Both the position numbers and the translations under genes were made by a program. A DNA stretch of 34,016 nucleotides from a virus: positions 1-34,016 of IMG/VR virus record IMGVR_UViG_3300047554_000347. The stretch is one strand, 5' to 3'. The notes beneath the pieces were generated by a model. It was not told the origin of the DNA. It was given only the letters and a program-made list of their open reading frames with translations, and did no database searches. This document shows positions 1,414 through 26,378 of the stretch, piece by piece; position 1 is the stretch's first letter, and each line of letters begins with the position of its first letter.

Positions 1414-4400
1414 TTATGGAAATGTTACTGTTACGGCATCCCAATTATTACATGTTATTTTTACAACGCATGTCAATCTACATCCGCTGTCAAATGCTGA
1501 ATTTTGAATGTCAAAATATCCTGTGTTATTTGAACGGCCAACACCTGCAATTCCATTTCCTGCCTGCTCTCTTAAATCCCACCACCGTTCATTTGGATTT
1601 CTTGATGTGTCATATGCAATTCCTGCTGTATAACGCAAATACCAAATTTCAGCAGGATTTCCTGATGTTGTACGCGTTGCATGAAATGTTATTTCATATT
1701 GAAATTGGACATTATATCCTGCTGCAACTGTAAATCGCATATTTGTTGCTGTTGTGTATGAATTCACATCCATTGTTCGCGAATAAACACGATGTCCACG
1801 ATTTTCTGATTGCACATTATAATGAACCATTTTTGTGCGAATATCTCCATTTACATGCAGCAAAAATGTTGGTGCTGAAATACCGATTCCTATATTTCCT
1901 GTTGATAATATTCGCATTCTTTCAACTCCCGATGTACTAAATATTATTGGGTTTACTGAACTATTTGATAAATAAACAGCACCCGATAATGATTTCAATT
2001 GTGCTGTATAAACTCCATTGTCAATTATATCAATTCTTGGCTGACTTACATTATTATTAAATTCTAATGCATATCCTGATCCATTTGCAGCATTAAACAT
2101 TCCAATTGATGTTCCATTATCAAAAATCAATGAATTGCCAATTGCGGCTGATCCTGTCCATTTTGTAATGTAATTTGTTGTGCCGCTTCCTGTAATGCTT
2201 CCACCACCTGATGCCGAAATTGTGCCACCTGAAATTGTAATGTTTGATCCTGCTGTAATTACTGATCCATCTGCGGCCAATATCTGTGCCGATGTGCCAC
2301 CTGATTTGACAAATGAATTTGCTGTAATTGAACTTGAAACCAATGCTGTCCCAACAATGTGCAATTTTGCACTCGGTGTTATTGTTCCAATGCCAATGTT
2401 TGTTCCATTATCATATAACAATGAATTAGCCACAACACTTGATCCAATCCATTTTGTGATGTATCCGCTTGATCCTGTGCCTGATATTGATGCGCTTGCT
2501 GATGCGATGTAATTAACAATTTCCACAATGTCATTCAGTACAACACCGACATTTAAAACAACATCTGTTCCCGATGTGGCAACAAAATCATTTGCATTTA
2601 AACGCGCACCATTGACATAAACATCAACTAAATTGGCCGTGTATCCACCCGAAATTGTGAATGTTGTTTGACCTGATGTGGCTGTAAATGTTGAAACATT
2701 GCGCGCTGATGATCCTGCTGAAATTGTCCATGCGCGATCCGCTGACAAATCATATGCCGTTCCGTTGATTGATAATGATCGCGTTGTTGGAACAGGTGTA
2801 AAACCCAACGCACCTGTTACATCTGCGGATAACAATGAAATTGCACCTGTCCGTGTATTGAATGATGTAACACCCAAAACGACATTTGACCAACTGATGT
2901 TTGTTCCATCGGTTGTCAAAAATTTACCTGAATTCCCTGTTTGACTTGGAAATCCTGAAACCCATGTATATGCTGAATCCCATTGCGTTTGCTTTGCTGT
3001 TGTTGGCAATGCATAACCTGCTGCAAATGTGATTGCCAATGTGCCTGATGATGTAATTGGATTTCCTGAAATTGCAAATCCTGTTGGCACTGTTGCATTT
3101 ACTGATGTAACCGTTCCAACATTCCATGATCTGTCCGCGCTTAAATCATAACCTGTGCCATTGATTGTCAATGTACGCGATGTCGGAACATATCCGGCCA
3201 ATGATGGCCCTGTTGAAACAGATCCATCAGCCATCAAATATTGTGCTGATGTACCGCCTGATTTCTTGATTGCTGTGGCAATTAATGATCCATTTACCTG
3301 AATATCATCAACACCATTATCAGTTGATGTATTCCATAAAAAACGGCCTGATGAATTGATCCTTCCGCGTTCAACTGAATCAACTATAAATGCCAATGAA
3401 TGGAATGTTGTTGATCCGATTTGAACCAATGAATTCAATGTGTTAAATATGCCTTTGATTGACATATCGTAATGCATCACACCAATGTGACCTGCACCTG
3501 TTTTTCCGCGAACAATGAAATTTGTTGCTGATGATGTCCATGTCGGTGTTTGACCAACAAAAACATTTCCATCCGCATTGATTCCCATCTTTTCAGATTG
3601 CGATCCGTTGGTGTAAAATTGAATGCCTCCACCTGTGCGTTTTGCAATTACTGCGGCATCCAATGATGTATTTGTTTGAAAATATGCATCTGCACCAAAC
3701 AATGCTGTTTGATTGCCATTTTGTTGCGCAATAAACATACCGCCGCCTGTTGGACTATTGTTGTCCAATTTTAATTCGGTGTATGCTGTTGTGCCTTTTA
3801 AATGAAGCAATGCCGTTGGCGATGTTGTGCCAATTCCGACAATTGCCCCTGTTGTATAAATAGGTGATTTTGCAAATAATTCTGTATCCCGGAAATATGG
3901 AATAAATCCCATGTCCAATGCTTCAACAGCGGAAACCGTGTTGTCAACATTGATTCGCAACCAACGCGCCTTAGTTGTGACCGGAATTGTATCTAATGCA
4001 TTAGGGATTGAAATTATTGCCTTTCCTACATCTGTTGCGTTAATCGCTGAAAATATGTTTTGATTTTTCCAAACCTGCAACAAATCATCAAAAATTAATG
4101 TATCAAGTTCTTCGGGATTCGTGATTTTTACATTGTGTAATTCATCAAGTTCATACCCATTGTCAACCTTTACAAAGATTTTACCATTAACAGCATGCGA
4201 ATAAACAACCCAACCAATGATAATTGTGTGTTCCGGTGCCTGTGGTTTTACATTTGTCAAATAACCTGCATGCGTTGGCGATAAATACAAAATGTCACCA
4301 TCAACCCATGTTTCTAATGCACCATATGATTTGGCCCCTGTGGTGTTTATTTTCTTTACCTCACCTGATGTTGTGATAAATCCTTCCGCGTTATTGGCAA

Positions 4401-19328: not shown

Positions 19329-20044
19329 TCAACAATCCGATTTTCACGGATCATTTTGTGGATAAAATAAATATATGAATCCGATTTTGCCATGGTGATT
19401 TTGATCGACATGTCGCTGATGTGATTCAACCGATTCCAAATTTTTTCCTTTGCTTCCGGTTCAACCTGAATGATCCCAAATTTTTTGGCTATGTCATACA
19501 GGTGATGCAATCCCCCATATGGAAATTTGTAATCAGGATTTTTTTTGATCGTATCAATGTAATCATTCAAAATCTGAACCGCTTGCATTCTTGATTCTTC
19601 ATCTGTTGGAATAGGCAATGGCGGCTGTTCAACGTATGTGTTTTGGATCATTCCGATCACCTGTCTTTTGTCCATGCTGTAAAATTTCAGCCATCGAACA
19701 AAATTTGATGAATTAAAAAACACATTGGTTTCTGATTCCTTCAAATAATCGCCATTCAAACCGCGTTTTGTGGCAATCAATACATCCTGTTCCGTATATG
19801 CCGGAAAATCTTTGATGTCCTGTAATAACATCAACACATTGGCCTGTTCATCTGCTGCGCTGATTCCGTTTAATCCTAATTTGAATTTAGCCAATGATAA
19901 AACCTTTGTGGCTAATGTAATCAGGTGTTCATCGCTGATTGTTTTGATCAATGGTAATTTTGATGCTTCAATGATTTCTAAATCTGCTTTGGTGAACTTA
20001 TGACCAATTGCTGATGTCGAAGGGATTGTTAATGACTTTTCCAT
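19325..20044 (-). CDS. Replication-associated protein, unknown (239 aa)
   Basis: A 239-aa protein immediately following the DUF4373 replication protein, starting inside its last 47 bases. It is mainly helical, with an N-terminal FTKADLEIIEASKLP segment, a NVLMLLQDIKDFPAYTEQDV region and an ending in DSYIYFIHKMIRENRIVE. No Walker motifs are present, so it is not a DnaC/IstB-type ATPase. Its position beside the initiator candidate suggests a helicase-loader or replisome adaptor role, which is inference only. Confidence 0.75.
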   Translation of the reverse strand: MEKSLTIPSTSAIGHKFTKADLEIIEASKLPLIKTISDEHLITLATKVLSLAKFKLGLNGISAADEQANVLMLLQDIKDFPAYTEQDVLIATKRGLNGDYLKESETNVFFNSSNFVRWLKFYSMDKRQVIGMIQNTYVEQPPLPIPTDEESRMQAVQILNDYIDTIKKNPDYKFPYGGLHHLYDIAKKFGIIQVEPEAKEKIWNRLNHISDMSIKITMAKSDSYIYFIHKMIRENRIVE

Positions 20045-20786
20045 CTTTCATGTTGTGTTTAATGGCTTGCTGTGCCGCGTTGATGTTTTCTAAATTGGTT
20101 TGAATTTTGCCTTTCTTTTCGGCAATTACCGAATTATTATTTTTGGGTTCAAATAATCCTTGATAATTATTGGCGATTGAATGTTCGATTGCCATTTGCA
20201 ACTGATCATCCGTTTTGCCTTCCCATTGCTTCATCAATGTGGCTTTGCCAATTTCCGTGTAACTTGATTTTTTTTGTCGCTTATAATCAAACCATGTATT
20301 AAACAACTGATCGCGAAAAGTTATGAAATCAACGATTTCATTATCTTTTTCTTTACTTTCATTTACTTTACTTTCATTTCCTTTCTTTTCCTTTCCTTTA
20401 CTTTGTTGAACGGCTGTTGAACGGTTGTTGGATTTCCGTAATTCCGCTGAACGTTGACCTGCCATTTTCCGTTGTTCCTTCATTCTAAAATATGGTTCCA
20501 AATAAACCAACATTCGTGGTGAAAAGAATTTTTGATCGCCATCAATTTCAAACAATTCGTAATTCAAAACGGTGACTTTTACCTTTGCTTCTGAAACACC
20601 AAATTCTTCTGCCAACAAATCCAAATCTTCCAATGGATACATCAAATCCTGTTGTTCGCGTAATGTTTCCAACAGCATGAAATAAATACCGTATCCTTCA
20701 ACACCCAATTCTTTGCGCAATCTGCGAATCTTGCGATCATGTCGCGCGTTGCAAAAATGTGGGAAATAATATGCTTCTTTTTCCAT
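19998..20786 (-). CDS. DUF4373 (Lin1244/Lin1753-like) replication protein
   Basis: A 262-aa protein. Its N-terminal 100 residues are a DUF4373 domain: YYFPHF.NARHD.KIRRLRKELG-[VI]-EGYGIYFMLLE.LRE, then a winged-helix-like D..LAEEFGVSE.KV....N.ELF..D. The middle is a Lys/Glu/Asn-rich linker (about residues 125-150, from a T/C-rich tract at 20345-20405), and the C-terminal part is helical. The family is found in phages and plasmids as replication initiator-like proteins, comparable to DnaD-type factors. It is the first gene after the promoter at 20892-20921 and its structured leader. The initiator role follows from family and context. Confidence 0.85.
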   Translation of the reverse strand: MEKEAYYFPHFCNARHDRKIRRLRKELGVEGYGIYFMLLETLREQQDLMYPLEDLDLLAEEFGVSEAKVKVTVLNYELFEIDGDQKFFSPRMLVYLEPYFRMKEQRKMAGQRSAELRKSNNRSTAVQQSKGKEKKGNESKVNESKEKDNEIVDFITFRDQLFNTWFDYKRQKKSSYTEIGKATLMKQWEGKTDDQLQMAIEHSIANNYQGLFEPKNNNSVIAEKKGKIQTNLENINAAQQAIKHNMKDGKVINNPFDISNWS

Positions 20787-20790
20787 GATA

Positions 20791-20888
20791 AAAAAATAAT
20801 GCCTGAATCCGTAGGAGTGGAAACAGGCATTGATGGTTTTTAACCCATATTAATCACCGGAAAACTCCTACCTTTTCCGCTGATCATA
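20791..20888 (-). ncRNA. Structured leader or small RNA with complementary hairpin loops
   Basis: Just before the DUF4373 gene, the minus strand folds into hairpin A (20858-20879: 7-bp stem CGGAAAA/TTTTCCG, loop GGTAGGAG), a weaker hairpin at 20833-20848, and hairpin B (20798-20831: 8-bp stem AATGCCTG/CAGGCATT, 18-base loop). Loop B contains CTCCTAC, complementary to GTAGGAG in loop A; with flanking bases the match is 8 bp. Hairpin B is followed by ATTTTTTT, like a terminator, and then the ATG at 20786. A consensus promoter ends at 20892. A 15-codon frame (20887-20840, MISGKGRSFPVINMG) covers hairpin A. This could be an attenuator or an independent small RNA. Confidence 0.65.
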
Positions 20889-20891
20889 ATG

Positions 20892-20921
20892 CAAATATAA
20901 CAGTTTAATTTATCTGCGCAA
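20892..20921 (-). promoter_or_regulatory. Bacteroidetes-type promoter
   Basis: The minus strand has TTG (20921-20919), a 19-base spacer and TATATTTG (20899-20892). This matches the Bacteroidetes consensus of a -33 TTG and a -7 TAnnTTTG box. Transcription would begin near 20885, a few bases before hairpin A of the leader. It overlaps the stop codon of the preceding 86-aa gene. Confidence 0.75.
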
Positions 20922-21170
20922 TGGCTTGAAATCAAACATGTGTCCATATTGCGGAAATTCATTGACAAATTTTCGCGCATACATTGCTGTGAAATTATTG
21001 CTGACTTTATACGGTTCATTTGTTCTAACTGAATGATGCCACCGGATTTCCTCAACAATTCGTTTTGATCCTAATTTGCGCATTCCGCGCTGTATTAAAT
21101 CAATTGCGATTGCTTTGTATAATTCCCAAATGTGTGGATTGTCCTGATCGTATTGCTGAAATGTTTTCAT
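20910..21170 (-). CDS. Conserved phage protein, unknown (86 aa)
   Basis: An 86-aa protein with the pattern NP.IWELY...A..LI.RG....SK.I.EEIRW...V......Y.V.NN....YAR.F...FP, which is common in phages and has no assigned function. Matching pieces here include NPHIWELYKAIAIDLIQRG, VEEIRWHHSV and YARKFVNEFPQY. The start overlaps the stop of a small membrane-protein gene (TAATG) and is preceded by a TAAACCTAAT word at 21177-21186. Confidence 0.8.
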   Translation of the reverse strand: MKTFQQYDQDNPHIWELYKAIAIDLIQRGMRKLGSKRIVEEIRWHHSVRTNEPYKVSNNFTAMYARKFVNEFPQYGHMFDFKPLRR

Positions 21171-26216: not shown

Positions 26217-26234
26217 TCAATTGATTTTGTTTTC

Positions 26235-26267
26235 CAAAATTAGCCATATAATAAATGCGAAAAACAA
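26235..26267 (-). promoter_or_regulatory. Candidate promoter of the phosphoesterase unit
   Basis: The minus strand has TTG (26267-26265), 22 bases, TAATTTTG (26242-26235). Spacing is at the long end of what is reported for flavobacterial promoters. It lies directly after the terminator hairpin and 18 bases before the ATG at 26216, so position supports it. Confidence 0.5.
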
Positions 26268-26296
26268 AAATGGCCACCAACATTGTCAATGGCCAT
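26260..26296 (-). terminator. Rho-independent terminator of the structural operon
   Basis: A perfect 7-bp stem ATGGCCA/TGGCCAT (26296-26290 and 26276-26270) with a 13-base loop is followed on the minus strand by TTTTGTTTTT. It probably ends the long tail-gene transcript. Confidence 0.8.
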
Positions 26297-26321
26297 TCTA
26301 TCACAACTAAACCTAATCAAT

Positions 26322-26350
26322 AAATGATACAGCCATTGGCCGTATCATTT
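26322..26350. terminator. Hairpin after the distal tail gene
   Basis: Perfect 9-bp arms AAATGATAC/GTATCATTT (26322-26330, 26342-26350) with a further GCC/GGC inside. On the minus strand it is followed by a short ATTGATT, no strong T-run, so it may slow decay of mRNA or assist the stronger terminator downstream. Confidence 0.6.
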
Positions 26351-26378
26351 AAAATTTTCAACCCTAAACTAAACAAAA

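Follow-up and report, generated by a model that had tools for sequence, protein, structure and literature searches.

What is the compact, highly structured sequence that immediately precedes the replication initiator gene of this phage, and how might it act on that gene? The window analyzed here is the entire IMG/VR record IMGVR_UViG_3300047554_000347 (positions 1 to 34,016; 34,016 nt), which, judged from its portal, terminase and tape-measure genes, represents a siphophage; the terminases of cultured Bacteroides phages share about 41% identity with that of the window. The element of interest, a leader, is located on the minus strand. The gene that follows it (19998..20786, minus strand) encodes a replication initiator of the Lin1244_N/DUF4373 family (Pfam PF14297, E = 5.9e-14), which matches the PHROG family of replication initiation proteins (phrog_2562, E = 3.7e-20). 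The neighbor on the 5' side, an 86-aa ORF on the same strand (20910..21170), has no match in Pfam and belongs to no family; given that its 3' end overlaps the promoter region, this gene is part of the context and lies outside the RNA. Three of the initiators (P0001, L103:7117-7815 and L078:1670-2356) have a common C-terminal region (FRDxLFNxWF.YKxxKK...SIANNYQGxFEP) combined with swapped N-terminal domains, namely Lin1244_N, HTH_36 or a third type.

The leader is preceded by a promoter of the flavobacterial type. As reported in a first-pass annotation made from the sequence of the window, a TTG resembling a -33 element (20919..20921) is followed, after a 19-nt spacer, by the -7 box TATATTTG (20892..20899), all on the minus strand. 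The next feature is hairpin A (20852..20885), with the loop GGTAGGAG at 20872-20865. The annotation described 7 bp around this loop, and these are present, but the predicted hairpin is larger, with 5 further bp below a G.G mismatch, 12 bp altogether. After a small predicted middle hairpin (20833..20848; ATGG...CCAT in the window) comes hairpin B, the terminator hairpin (20798..20831), which consists of 8 bp, an internal loop and 3 bp. The 8-bp stem had been recognized correctly, but the 18-nt loop assigned to it is closed by the inner 3 bp (TCC/GGA), which leaves the 8-nt loop ACTCCTAC at 20818-20811. Seven T's (20790..20796) form a U-tract resembling that of an intrinsic terminator, a feature present in every class of these elements described below, and the ATG of the initiator gene (position 20786) is located just 3' of it. 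The two loops contain the strands GTAGGAG (20865..20871) and CTCCTAC (20811..20817), which form a perfect 7-bp complement, or 8 bp when the flanking U-A pair is counted, in agreement with the pairing of 7-8 bases that had been proposed. The predicted minus-strand fold has an energy of -42.7 kcal/mol compared to -24.6 +/- 3.6 kcal/mol for shuffled sequences (z = -4.98, 0/200). An RNA transcribed from the plus strand was considered and rejected because its fold is much weaker (z = -2.5). Elsewhere in the window (26217-26378, minus strand), a second combination of a hairpin and a terminator is found between two genes, with the arrangement AATGATAC-GGCCAATGGC-TGTATCATT followed by ATGGCCA...TGGCCAT with T's; here the complement of loop A overlaps the terminator stem, and the arrangement is retained, with altered loop letters, in the close relative L153.

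A protein search started with the initiator of the window identifies 72 viral loci, and 71 of these contain a leader with kissing hairpins, either directly 5' of the initiator gene or one gene further upstream; L007 is the sole exception. Two structural classes are found at the initiator site of these loci, and the window belongs to class 1. The middle hairpin is specific to this class, where it is visible in most of the aligned rows, typically in the form GG(G)TT(T)AAAAACC in the relatives of the window. In class 2, the first hairpin is of another type (AATCGC-CTCACTACATTATA-GCGATT) and the terminator hairpin is longer, but loop A still pairs with loop B. Class-1 elements occur once per genome of about 30 kb in 42 of the 50 whole records, and the 8 records that lack class 1 are those known to hold another class or scaffold at this site; these counts come from viral contigs that are related and unevenly sampled, and the E-values of the home-made models are rough. 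A 59-kb record (IMGVR_UViG_3300027969_000114) contains two class-1 elements and two replication modules, and a 63-kb record (IMGVR_UViG_3300043436_001856) also contains two replication modules; both look like chimeric assemblies of two phages of about 30 kb each.

Compensatory changes between the two loops, the check proposed along with the original annotation, are readily detected. In class 1, all 217 cells of the loop-loop helix are paired (100%; 31/31 sequences), 24 of these cells are double-changed, and three pairs are altered on both sides; none of 500 shuffles reaches the score of this helix, and slid controls are only 32-61% paired. The helix of hairpin A is 98.1% paired in the same 31 sequences, with double changes in 10 of its 12 pairs, and all three inner pairs of hairpin B show double changes as well, whereas in the outer stem of hairpin B some class-1 rows are misaligned by MAFFT. 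For the class-1 structure as a whole, 22 pairs show double changes compared to 12.3 in shuffles. In class 2, the loop helix is 100% paired in 15/15 sequences, with 5 of the 8 pairs double-changed, and the structure predicted by RNAalifold without constraints is exactly the kissing helix. Because the shuffling control leaves the relatedness of the sequences in place, a blind test was added in which the viral collection was scanned twice with the stem of hairpin B fixed and the loop positions left open. An upstream complement of the loop of at least 7 nt was found in 45/45 and 24/24 instances, that is, in 69/69 distinct instances long enough to judge, and these complements are perfect over 7-8 nt; the instances span only four loop sequences, so that generality is tested mainly across phages and less across loops. 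The match between the loops is retained in hundreds of related phage sequences while the loop letters vary. The retention of the leader in 71/72 loci combined with the complete, doubly changed loop pairing is more than expected by chance and, as judged from the aligned sequences, the loops are under selection to pair.

The same principle extends to elements with other scaffolds. A pattern for the commonest loop pair matches 82 viral stretches, which are followed by several types of initiator genes or by small genes. Two more protein searches, started with other initiators, lead to 150 loci; an automatic search detects a kissing pair in 115 of these, a few of which are chance matches, and further pairs are visible by eye. 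At least three scaffolds are not obviously similar in sequence to either class 1 or class 2, namely GCGTT[ATGGTAC]AACGC...CGGGAA[GTACCAT]TTCCCG, GATAT[GTCGCAT]ATATC...GCTA[ATGCGAC]TAGC and CGAGT[GTTGCAG]ACTC...GTA[CTGCAAC]GAC (loops bracketed). Altogether, 23 loop types were counted, with cognate loops pairing at an average of -9.8 kcal/mol compared to -1.4 kcal/mol for non-cognate ones. At least 16 of the 23 types have U at the second position of the loop and A at the next-to-last, a rule that holds for both loops because they are complementary; this is reminiscent of the U-turn in anticodon and antisense loops. In class 2 and in the cultured phages described below, the linkers between hairpins A and B are A-rich, with a recurrent (A)AAA-N4-5-TTA motif (e.g., TTAAAAACATTA and TTAAAAATATTA), and may contact the kissing helix.

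Several cultured phages possess leaders of the same architecture: the Flavobacterium phages lillamy9-6, mumin9-2 and snusmum6-2, Tenacibaculum phage JQ, Polaribacter phage Freya_3 and Cellulophaga phage phi18:3. For the mumin, lillamy and snusmum phages, the source is a collection of 38 virulent isolates (PMC7077304). A search by DNA similarity identifies no cultured relatives, and those listed were found by architecture only; under the strict promoter rule, there are 12 matches in 18 genomes compared to 2.5 expected from shuffles, so that not all matches are real, and each case rests on homology and position. In phi18:3 (NC_021794, region around 3050-3190), a recognizable class 2 element (CTTCTGACACTATAG vs CTTCTCACATTATAG) is located ahead of gp007 and a DnaD-like helicase loader; phi18:3 is among the members in which the U-tract is weak. 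At homologous sites, lillamy9-6 and mumin9-2 carry compensated loops, GTGAGACG/CGTCTCAC and GTGGAACG/CGTTCCAC, respectively. In JQ (L333), a weaker second candidate, GTTCGTT/AACGAAC with a T-tract, precedes the portal gene (around 9876, plus strand). No element was detected in six cultured Bacteroides-group phages, in Flavobacterium phages 1/32 and FPSV-S20A1, or in the searched parts of Cellulophaga phages phi38:1 and phi19:1.

Some genomes contain several copies, the loops of which do not match one another (three in snusmum6-2, two each in mumin9-2 and L101), as expected for self-contained units. The three different loops of snusmum6-2 do not cross-pair; three kissing leaders of a cultured virulent phage (MN812235.1, L346; positions 9708, 13649 and 14684), with mutually non-pairing loops, precede a helicase gene, a gene for a NUMOD4-type endonuclease and the gene before a second helicase. 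The two leaders of L101 (minus strand, around 9360 and 730 in locus coordinates) have the loops GTCGTGG and GTAGGAG and bracket a single early region, and one of them precedes an HNH endonuclease gene.

The first-pass annotation recognized no described RNA family, and the database searches concur. A covariance-model search of Rfam 15 with the window and 13 loci covering the other classes produces no matches, with only chance-level scores at E <= 10, and the model of the c4 antisense RNA (RF01695) does not match any of these sequences either. A description of a kissing-loop terminator leader was not found in the open-access literature. In bacterial genomes, a search for the commonest loop type yields four matches in 84,980 species, none of which combines the promoter, the hairpins and the U-tract. 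The earlier reading as a whole is partly supported. Its core, a promoter-driven structured leader or small RNA in front of a replication gene, is supported. The 15-codon frame over hairpin A does exist in the window, but its ATG is absent from 30/30 other class-1 rows; the candidate leader peptide MISGKGRSFPVINMG was rejected as not conserved, and with the frame unique to the window, a switch controlled by translation is unsupported. The suggestion of antisense control fares no better: no conserved promoter was found on the opposite strand (a -7 box in at most 13 of 156 elements in any 10-nt bin), so that an opposite-strand antisense RNA is unsupported.

The combined set includes 172 distinct elements, in 158 of which an ORF in the sense direction is readable; the other 14 were inspected and represent reverse-strand shadows, and reverse-strand matches of the home-made models were rejected in general as low-scoring shadows of symmetric hairpins. 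In almost all of the 172 elements, TATATTTG or a closely similar -7 box is present at fixed spacing, and in 75 of 159 this box is preceded by a TTG at a distance of 22-23 nt. An ATG follows the U-tract in all 158 sense elements, at a median distance of 10 nt (5-95% range, 3-17; maximum, 49), and no -7 box is found between loop B and the ATG in any of them (0/158). By sequence, all 158 thus have the general layout of an attenuator: promoter, leader, terminator hairpin with U-tract, and gene, with no promoter in between. A constant spacing is combined with a variety of downstream genes (initiators of several types, small ORFs, HNH endonucleases). The proximity of the ATG and the lack of an intervening promoter favor a cis-acting leader of the attenuator type.

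Comparison of closely related loci reveals exchange of the RNA between conserved flanks. Among pairs in which the downstream genes are at least 88% identical, those with the same loop show 87% identity upstream, 98% in the RNA and 93% in the gene, whereas for those with different classes the respective values are 76%, 48% and 91%; in the case of L003 and L038, which carry different classes, the upstream regions are 92%, the RNAs 48% and the genes 94% identical. When placed on the initiator tree, the loop types and classes are intermixed. Thus, the RNA is replaced as a unit between the promoter and the start codon. These exchanges show that the RNA classes are functionally interchangeable, and hint that the loop type itself could matter between phages.

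Taken together, these observations indicate that the leader is probably a real, undescribed RNA switch. We assign a probability of about one half to the most likely reading, namely that this structured leader of about 95-100 nt, with its own promoter, a terminator at the start codon and a kissing fold, is a cis-acting attenuator of the initiator or another early gene. From the anatomy, attenuation appears to be the best remaining reading, and we infer the following sequence of events. Transcription from the leader's own promoter would produce an RNA of about 95-100 nt in which the loop of the 5' hairpin pairs, within one molecule, with the loop of the terminator hairpin, yielding a compact kissing-hairpin fold. 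Many polymerases would terminate at hairpin B, releasing the short RNA, whereas read-through by the remainder would produce the initiator mRNA, in a proportion set by the kissing interaction. No conserved alternative antiterminator pairing was noticed, so that the putative switch has no obvious second state. A purely structural role in cis also leaves the swapping of loop types between near-identical neighbors unexplained.

Such rapid swapping would be compatible with an immunity-like role in trans that resembles the role of the P4 CI RNA. The short RNA could pair, through its loops, with a leader being transcribed from another genome of the same loop type and lower the expression of the initiator of that genome, either as copy-number feedback or as exclusion of related phages, with the loop type as the specificity tag. 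This possibility, which we consider doubtful, draws on the exchange of loop types and even whole classes between near-identical flanks (L003 and L038), the closer similarity of same-loop RNAs than of their flanks, the energy gap between cognate and non-cognate loops along with the orthogonality of copies in the same genome, and the location at a site of replication control, as in P4 (PMC4825925). However, intramolecular pairing should outcompete intermolecular pairing, the phages look virulent, and general phage mosaicism can also swap intergenic cassettes. A shade more doubtful is the extension of this scheme to a virus-wide tag of self and non-self, in which the short RNA of the exchangeable cassette would silence co-infecting genomes with the same loop, and selection for rare types would switch loops and scaffolds while self-complementarity is kept perfect.

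The promoter, the terminator and the very stable fold would also suit an independent small RNA that acts in trans on other host or phage transcripts, with the kissing fold providing stability and the downstream gene expressed by incidental read-through. This is unlikely given that the element is always located a few nucleotides from an ATG on the same strand, without a second promoter, that the rest of each locus shows no enrichment of the loop sequences, and that unrelated classes at the same site have only the loop pairing in common. Loop targets elsewhere in the phage were rejected as candidates because heptamers of a locus's own loop are not enriched over those of other loops. A match of the loop to a universal stretch of 16S rRNA (ACTCCTACGG) was dropped as well, given that the other loop types are not known to share it. 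It is slightly less likely again that the leader modifies elongation or protects the 5' end of the mRNA, as a put-RNA-like antiterminator or a stabilizer, with the U-tract serving mainly as an AU-rich ribosome-binding region in hosts that lack Shine-Dalgarno sequences. The fold is indeed located at the extreme 5' end, the T-tract runs into the start codon, and initiation regions in Bacteroidota are AU-rich, but in every class a G+C-rich stem is directly followed by 5-8 T's, the usual signature of an intrinsic terminator. Finally, the proximity to replication initiators could suggest hairpins that act in DNA, by pairing in single-stranded DNA at a replication origin or a single-strand initiation site; we regard this as very improbable because the promoter at fixed spacing and the U-tract are found on one strand only, and the elements also precede HNH endonuclease genes.

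If the attenuator reading is correct, flavobacterial phages, which are among the commonest in lakes and coastal seas, run their replication and early operons by means of an undescribed RNA device, a terminator whose loop is locked to the preceding hairpin. More than 20 natural orthogonal loop pairs would then allow the rules by which loops recognize each other, and the significance of cassette swapping, to be tested directly in cultured phages, for which snusmum6-2, mumin9-2, lillamy9-6, phi18:3, JQ and Freya_3 are suitable, and would provide a source of natural orthogonal attenuator parts.

Several known RNAs have individual features in common with this leader. In the phi29 pRNA, two loops are kept complementary as the sequence changes, and pair between molecules in the packaging ring; unlike the pRNA, the element described here is associated with replication and early genes and includes a terminator. 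The c4 antisense RNA (RF01695) is a phage RNA that originates from a leader and contains internal complementary segments (PMC2864571); it is similar in these two respects but differs in hosts, structure and target. Gifsy-1 IsrK is a terminated short RNA produced, along with a read-through mRNA, from a single promoter, and promotes translation of the longer transcript in trans (PMC4825925). The pair of a short RNA and a read-through transcript is thus common to IsrK and the proposed phage leader, but no kissing terminator has been described for IsrK. In P4, the CI RNA is released by processing of a longer transcript, and its pairing with the flanking sites seqA and seqC causes premature termination of transcription of the replication genes (PMC4825925). 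Like CI, the phage element would be a short RNA derived from the untranslated leader of a replication operon, with segments complementary to one another; in this case, however, these segments are the loops of two hairpins within about 95 nt, the sequence is unrelated, and the phages look virulent whereas P4 CI functions in a lysogen. The pT181 attenuator is the leader of a replication gene. In attenuators of this type, the leader kisses with a distinct antisense RNA before the terminator forms, and the terminator stem is the pairing target of an antiterminator sequence (PMC4878617). The phage element is similar in that it is the leader of a replication gene with a predicted intrinsic terminator within it, loop-loop kissing as the putative recognition step and loop identity as the putative source of specificity; it differs in that an antisense promoter is not conserved and a single short RNA contains both loops, of which the terminator itself carries one.
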